In this document: positions 50,709 to 51,342 of the stretch, piece by piece
Layout: the number at the start of each line of letters is the position of its first letter
How positions within the stretch are numbered: position 1 is the first letter of the stretch
NCBI GenBank assembly: GCA_000697665.1
Contig: KL197723.1
Span: forward strand, 586,203 to 650,202
Origin: Jaapia argillacea MUCL 33604
Lineage: Eukaryota; Basidiomycota; Agaricomycetes; Jaapiales; Jaapiaceae
Direction: 5' to 3'
Length of the DNA: 64,000 nt
Notes under the pieces: model-generated
What the model was told of the DNA's origin: nothing
Databases searched by the model: none
Seen by the model: the letters and a program-made list of their open reading frames with translations, nothing else
Position numbers and translations under genes: made by a program

Positions 50709-51342
50709 ATGAGCGTCACATCGTTCCTGTCGTCTTTCTTTTCTCCTCTGAACGCGGACGCTCCGGAGAGCAAGGAGGAGGAGGAGAAGCCAGAGGAGAC
50801 GAGCGAAGAGGCCGAGCCCGAGGCAGAGGCAGAGGAAGAAGAAGAGGAGCCTGAGGATGTCAGTTCAGTCTTCTACTTCTTGCTTTCGCGTCTGACTTGT
50901 TTGCAGGCTGCCCCCGCTATCCGGGAGGAATGTGAGGCGACAACCAAATGCGCACCTTTGGTGAAACACTTCCAACATTGCCAGGAGAAGGTCCATGCCG
51001 GTGAAGGTTTCAAGCATGAGGATTGTGTTGAGGAACTGTGAGTATCGCGTCTACCTCCTGACCTTGTCATTTTCTGACGATATTTCTCCACCAGCTGTAC
51101 GTGTCCTTTCTTTTCCCCGTTACTTTGAACTAGTGCTCAAAACTGGCTCGCCCTTTTGTTCTTCAGTCCAGTAAGTCCCATATGCCCGAATTTTTGCTCG
51201 CATTGGTACTGAATCACGCTTCTTGATCACAGTATGATGCACTGCGTGGATGTACGTAGTTTGACTGCTTACTAGTGACGATATCTCAATGACTCCTCAA
51301 CAGGCTTGCGCCGCACCCACTCTCTTCTCCAAGCTCAAGTAG
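50709..51342 (+). CDS. QCR6: Cytochrome bc1 complex hinge protein, subunit 6
   Basis: Subunit of mitochondrial respiratory complex III that helps cytochrome c1 meet cytochrome c. The first exon (50709-50858) gives an acidic N-terminus rich in Glu. Exon 50907-51037 has CEATTKCAPLVKHFQHCQEK and KHEDCVEE. To reach the conserved end LFHMMHCVDACAAP and LFSKLK, two microexons must be joined: 51095-51096 (2 nt, CT) and 51167-51170 (4 nt, TCCA), then 51233-51251 (19 nt) and 51304-51342. These six exons total 345 nt, 114 codons plus stop. All introns are GT-AG and 48-70 nt long. The CxxxC/HCVD cysteines of the hinge family are kept. The frame fails without the 2-nt exon. Confidence 0.9.

Follow-up and report, generated by a model that had tools for sequence, protein, structure and literature searches.

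The QCR6 gene of the basidiomycete Jaapia argillacea MUCL 33604, which by homology encodes the hinge subunit of complex III, very probably contains two microexons in direct succession, CT (2 nt) and TCCA (4 nt), in the window analysed here (64,000 nucleotides of contig KL197723.1). In the favoured model, to which we assign a probability of roughly 0.9, three short U2-type introns would be spliced out individually through intron definition, leaving both microexons in the mRNA. As judged from the enumerated exon paths and from homologous proteins, the conserved QCR6 protein needs CT and TCCA alike, and the double layout is beyond chance.

Gene layout

Six exons join in one frame to give a product of 114 residues, and the introns between them lie in phases 0, 2, 1, 2, and 0 (Table 1). 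Exon 2 reads ...GAGGAACT up to position 51037. Three consecutive codons are interrupted, each by one intron: CTC (Leu), TTC (Phe), and CAT (His). Sequence, reading frame, and splice-site consensus are observed directly: the two exons of at most 15 nt, CT and TCCA, are both bounded by a YAG acceptor and a GTRNGT donor, and the donors and acceptors of introns A to D are each contiguous in the primary sequence. An earlier note on this DNA had given the same coordinates, letters, and frame, with introns of 57, 70, 62, and 52 nt that all run from GT to AG, and these were reproduced throughout. Where TCCA meets intron C, the final A of the microexon and the initial G of the intron make up a second AG, 5 nt past the intron B acceptor (TTCAG, up to 51166); this AG is a possible tandem-acceptor competitor, and its paths are among those listed below (window 51162-51171).

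Table 1. Exons and introns of QCR6 in the favoured model (positions in the window).
Feature	Position	Strand	Basis
QCR6 exon 1, start codon and acidic N-terminal part	50709-50858	+	open frame, GT-AG intron after
Intron 1, 48 nt, phase 0, GTCAGT...TTGCAG	50859-50906	+	splice sites
QCR6 exon 2, first helix, turn, and start of ...EDCVEEL	50907-51037	+	profile match, frame
Intron A, 57 nt, phase 2, GTGAGT...CACCAG, CTGAC branch-like site 17 nt before its end	51038-51094	+	
2-nt microexon CT, completing Leu codon CTC and opening Phe codon TTC	51095-51096	+	
Intron B, 70 nt, phase 1, GTACGT...CTTCAG, branch-like site CTCAA (weaker)	51097-51166	+	
4-nt microexon TCCA, completing Phe codon TTC and supplying the first two bases of the His codon	51167-51170	+	
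Intron C, 62 nt, phase 2, GTAAGT...TCACAG, CTGAA branch-like site 20 nt before its end	51171-51232	+	
19-nt exon, end of His codon and MMHCVD	51233-51251	+	frame, path listing
Intron D, 52 nt, phase 0, GTACGT...CAACAG	51252-51303	+	
Final coding exon ACAAPTLFSKLK with the stop codon	51304-51342	+	frame, path listing

Intron lengths and signals

The usual intron length was estimated by a motif count, covering lengths up to about 150 nt, in a genome sample of 264 kb, made up of the window plus 20 further pieces of 10 kb each. The genome as a whole comprises 43.7 Mb in 95 contigs and includes a match to Mating_N, a mating-type domain of basidiomycetes. A peak was found at 45-69 nt, with 9, 25, 31, 28, and 11 counts per 5-nt bin as compared to 2.5, 4.5, 4, 9.5, and 4.5 in the control, while the 70-74 nt bin showed little excess (11 vs 8.5). 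The introns had been described as normal for this genome, which holds for A, C, and D, all inside the peak; B, in contrast, is only at its edge. The weak branch-like site of intron B is likewise a point against the 2+4 model.

Intron duplication was considered as the origin of the arrangement and rejected, as introns 1, A, B, C, and D are no more alike than chance, A versus D excepted. Introns A and D have the short stretch TGACGATAT in common; this likeness, one of ten comparisons, was equalled by 3 of 300 shuffles, was not counted, and is probably due to chance. A DNA search listed, at its sensitivity, no further copies of introns A to D.

Homology and the conserved tail

A match to the UCR_hinge family (PF02320), the one such match in this genome, falls within 50910-51038 of the window. 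Ten sequences, all without exon 1, were scored against this profile, namely the 2+4 product, the products of eight other paths, and the part up to VEEL. The 2+4 product obtained 95.5 bits (cut-off 27.2) in an alignment covering positions 4-65 of the 65 in the profile, in agreement with the earlier identification of the gene as QCR6. The other eight paths scored 87.3 (6-nt exon CTGTAC), 84.9, 82.8, 81.6 (no microexon), 81.3, 81.2, 75.1, and 72.8 bits, and the part ending at VEEL alone reached 52.0 bits. With the whole protein, 31 distinct PDB sequences were matched at E values up to 0.001, the best being chain H of 7rja (Ubiquinol--cytochrome-c reductase subunit 6), which aligns from residue 16 on.

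The tails of nine of these 31 sequences, which are not independent of each other, were compared; we take them to be four of vertebrate type, three from yeast, and those of Candida and Yarrowia. All nine extend 24 residues past the helix-2 cysteine (EDC/EQC motif) and carry a Phe at +5. When four possible products of the gene were set beside them, both features were found together in the 2+4 product alone; the fungal PDB tails read FFH where QCR6 of this genome reads LFH. The two cysteines are spaced by 14 in the 2+4 product and by 12 without the microexons, and this spacing should matter, given that disulfide bonds join the cysteines of helix 2 to helix 1. The cysteine at +14 is absent from the yeast and Yarrowia tails. 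A scan of viral contigs returned no relatives for a comparison of exon structure.

The same tails bear on a reading in which the gene has a single 6-nt microexon, CTGTAC (51095-51100), with TCCA being intronic and the tail reading EELCTMMHCVD. This path is in frame, has the right length, and ranks second of the nine spliced paths scored, 8.2 bits below 2+4, but its product is devoid of the Phe that occurs in all nine PDB tails compared, and it would have to employ the donor GTGTCC instead of GTACGT together with a 132-nt intron. We consider it extremely unlikely.

Exon paths and the effect of dropping exons

Exon paths were listed for introns of 40-260 nt that have a GT donor and an AG acceptor, while exon 1 and the beginning of exon 2 were kept constant. 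Among 6,991 such paths, 443 stay open through to the normal stop, 45 of which keep both VEEL and AAPTLFSKLK, and just one of the 443, the 2+4 microexon path, produces the intact tail EELFHMMHCVDACAAPTLFSKLK. The intact VEELFHMMHCVDACAAPTLFSKLK is also obtained from one path alone among those listed, and LFHMMHC occurs in four, three of which lose VD, part of exon 2, or both. Allowing stepwise or nested removal instead (at most four steps, introns of 40-100 nt) gave 7,162 states, in which the tail is reached via a single exon set, again 2+4. It had been proposed that the conserved tail depends on both microexons, and this is borne out in so far as neither the GT-AG listing nor the nested-removal model contains another exon path to the intact tail.

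Retention of intron A, B, C, or D singly leads to an early stop (at once in the case of intron A), and if TCCA is dropped, a stop follows one residue later. The earlier note had stated that the frame is lost without the 2-nt exon. This applies when CT alone is dropped, which spoils the protein with an unrelated tail, but not when CT and TCCA are dropped together: the frame is then kept (EEL-MMHCVD...) and the loss is limited to Phe-His. The frame alone thus does not force the 2+4 model; the conserved residues and the length do.

A protein lacking Phe-His is precisely what would arise if a single 195-nt intron (51038-51232) were removed and the gene had no microexons. Such a structure is simpler, holds the frame to the normal stop, and might, in our opinion, be picked by an automatic annotator. 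Its product, however, scores 13.9 bits lower against PF02320 and has a tail of 22 rather than 24 residues with a cysteine spacing of 12 rather than 14. Moreover, the 195-nt intron would be far beyond the 45-69 nt peak (in a length count that reached about 150 nt), and the consensus donors and matching acceptors inside it would be left unexplained. All in all, this structure appears very unlikely.

Chance expectation

The 195-nt stretch was compared with 20,000 dinucleotide shuffles in which its six first and three last bases were fixed. Under a strict rule (donor GTRNGT, acceptor YAG, introns of 40-100 nt), the real stretch holds one open chain, which is the 2+4 chain; any open chain was found in 67 of the 20,000 shuffles, three of which add exactly two residues, and LF[HD] appeared in none of them. 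Under a loose rule (GT and AG, introns of 40-100 nt), five open chains exist in the real stretch, and the 20,000 shuffles included 8,108 with an open chain, 868 with two residues added, 93 with LF plus any residue, and 3 with LF[HD]. As the donor of intron 1, GTCAGT, fails the strict rule, this rule is to be understood as a filter and not as a law.

On a larger scale, the strict double layout (two exons of at most 6 nt, introns of 45-75 nt) occurs once on both strands of the 264-kb sample, at QCR6, and in none of 12 first-order random replicas. Strict single candidates of at most 10 nt number 13 in the sample, two of them from QCR6, as compared to 1-8 per random replica, so that single matches alone mean little. 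The double-microexon layout of QCR6 exceeds what chance provides.

A partial copy and other microexon candidates

A partial copy of QCR6 is located on the minus strand of contig C5 (39814-39973, corresponding to L003 1501-1660), about 40 kb from the contig start, and matches 50783-50932 of the window. It spans intron 1 together with the adjoining parts of exons 1 and 2, with 81% identity over 160 bases, and since the intron is kept, it looks like a duplicate made at the DNA level. As a second copy or allele for comparing the microexons it had to be discarded because it ends short of them, and the DNA search gave no other.

Further microexon candidates of at most 15 nt in the 264 kb amount to 32 combinations, with an open frame in ten rows at seven loci; our impression is that the open-frame candidates are mostly due to chance. 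The filter applied, with its 75-nt flanks, misses the QCR6 pair itself, hence these numbers are no census. One of the candidates, a 9-nt microexon at L015 6864-6872 (plus strand), has strict sites and introns of 62 and 60 nt, and its frame resembles a membrane protein by eye. The case is weak because the frame also stays open if the 9-nt exon is skipped or the second intron retained.

Comparison with known systems

A review sets microexons at 3-15 nt (PMC13149111), and PMC12940212 cites exons of 2-5 nt in Arabidopsis, Drosophila, and humans. Exons of 1 nt have also been reported, namely those of Arabidopsis APC11, with proof from cDNA and minigenes (PMC4674806), and of plant VPS55, with proof from RNA-seq and RT-PCR (PMC8831610). 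QCR6 resembles both in that an ultra-short exon appears to be needed for the proper protein; they are, however, single exons of plants and proven at the RNA level, whereas QCR6, a fungal gene, has a predicted pair of successive microexons (PMC4674806, PMC8831610). Closer in lineage is the 1-nt exon of Fusarium CYP621A, for which the same candidate exon was found in 24 genes and supporting SRA reads are reported (PMC12940212). Like QCR6, it belongs to a fungal gene and was deduced via a conserved motif, but CYP621A is an ascomycete P450 with one microexon, while QCR6 would have two (PMC12940212). In Trichoderma, a regulated microexon has been described (PMC11121469).

Two or more microexons in succession, as predicted for QCR6, are known from a plant and algal peptidase M1 gene (adjacent 5+12 nt; PMC11096116), with 5+12 nt microexons also in a rice transcript (PMC8831610), and from human RPS24 (successive 3, 18, and 22 nt; PMC11162997). 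The QCR6 pair is smaller than these sets, with 2+4 nt or 6 nt in all, and its exons look constitutive, in contrast to the alternatively spliced exons of RPS24 (PMC11162997). Among basidiomycetes, the P450 genes of Phanerochaete chrysosporium commonly have microexons and frequently small introns of 45-55 bp (PMC1184071); they share the small introns with the present gene, yet the shortest exon given for them is 6 bp as compared to 2 nt in QCR6 (PMC1184071).

The matches listed in the literature searched, mostly titles and abstract openings with few subscription papers, included no gene in which two exons shorter than 5 nt follow one another. The same matches contained no QCR6 microexons, with 'ubiquinol-cytochrome' and 'microexon' nowhere together, and by titles, abstract openings, and passages, the literature on basidiomycete microexons and on stwintrons revealed no pair as small. 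The sole mentions of 'microexon' in the passages of PMC3990503 and PMC4014442 are software settings. Summed up, the QCR6 pair is more extreme than the published adjacent pairs found in these sources, yet it represents a known phenomenon.

Proposed splicing mechanism and implications

According to the favoured 2+4 model, three ordinary short U2-type introns (57, 70, and 62 nt) have been inserted 2 and 4 coding nucleotides apart, and the retention of both microexons in the mRNA would give rise to the conserved second helix. The splicing itself, its order, and the steric exclusion are inferred. Only 2 nt separate the acceptor of intron A from the donor of intron B; their joint occupancy would hardly be possible, and the introns would most likely be removed singly by intron definition. 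Once intron A is out, CT would be part of a 133-nt exon and the next intron could be spliced routinely; once intron B is out, TCCA would likewise belong to a longer exon. Pairing of short introns by intron definition has been stated for S. pombe and Ascomycota (PMC6616335), and if this may be carried over to the present fungus, exon size need not be measured.

The earlier note had also raised recursive splicing, and one may conceive of the stretch as a stwintron or recursively spliced unit that must be removed from the inside outwards. The short introns of stwintrons in Ascomycota are indeed documented to be removed stepwise, and QCR6 shares with these stwintrons several short introns packed together and a presumed successive removal by intron definition (PMC6616335). 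In a stwintron, however, a splice signal belonging to one intron is broken by a second intron (PMC6616335), whereas the signals at QCR6 are unbroken and coding bases separate its introns. Assignment to the stwintron class was rejected accordingly, as no splice signal of an outer intron is broken up by an inner one. Furthermore, no splice signal needs to be created by earlier splicing, since the introns are complete in the primary transcript, and the nested paths converge on the 2+4 exon set; a strict stwintron is hence not needed, and we give very little credence to an obligatory order of this kind, although removal may follow some fixed order. As the splice signals used are intact before any splicing takes place, neither a recursive nor a twin-intron device needs to be invoked, and removal of short introns one at a time is enough and the simplest explanation.

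A more speculative idea is that the two microexons are coupled. As the tail is spoiled when one of them is missing but the frame survives when both are, splicing would yield either normal Qcr6 or a form shorter by two residues in its second helix, and regulated production of the shorter form might tune complex III in an all-or-none manner. We regard this as very improbable; if true, it would constitute a two-microexon switch built from three introns in three consecutive codons.

The constitutive 2+4 model would also be a warning that the annotation of such genomes may lose conserved residues. If transcripts confirm the model, three whole introns would reside within six coding nucleotides of a gene for a respiratory-chain protein. 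The locus would then offer a natural test of the minimal distance between a 3' splice site and the next 5' splice site as well as of strict one-intron-at-a-time splicing of short introns, and it would bear on how introns come to sit 2 and 4 nt apart.
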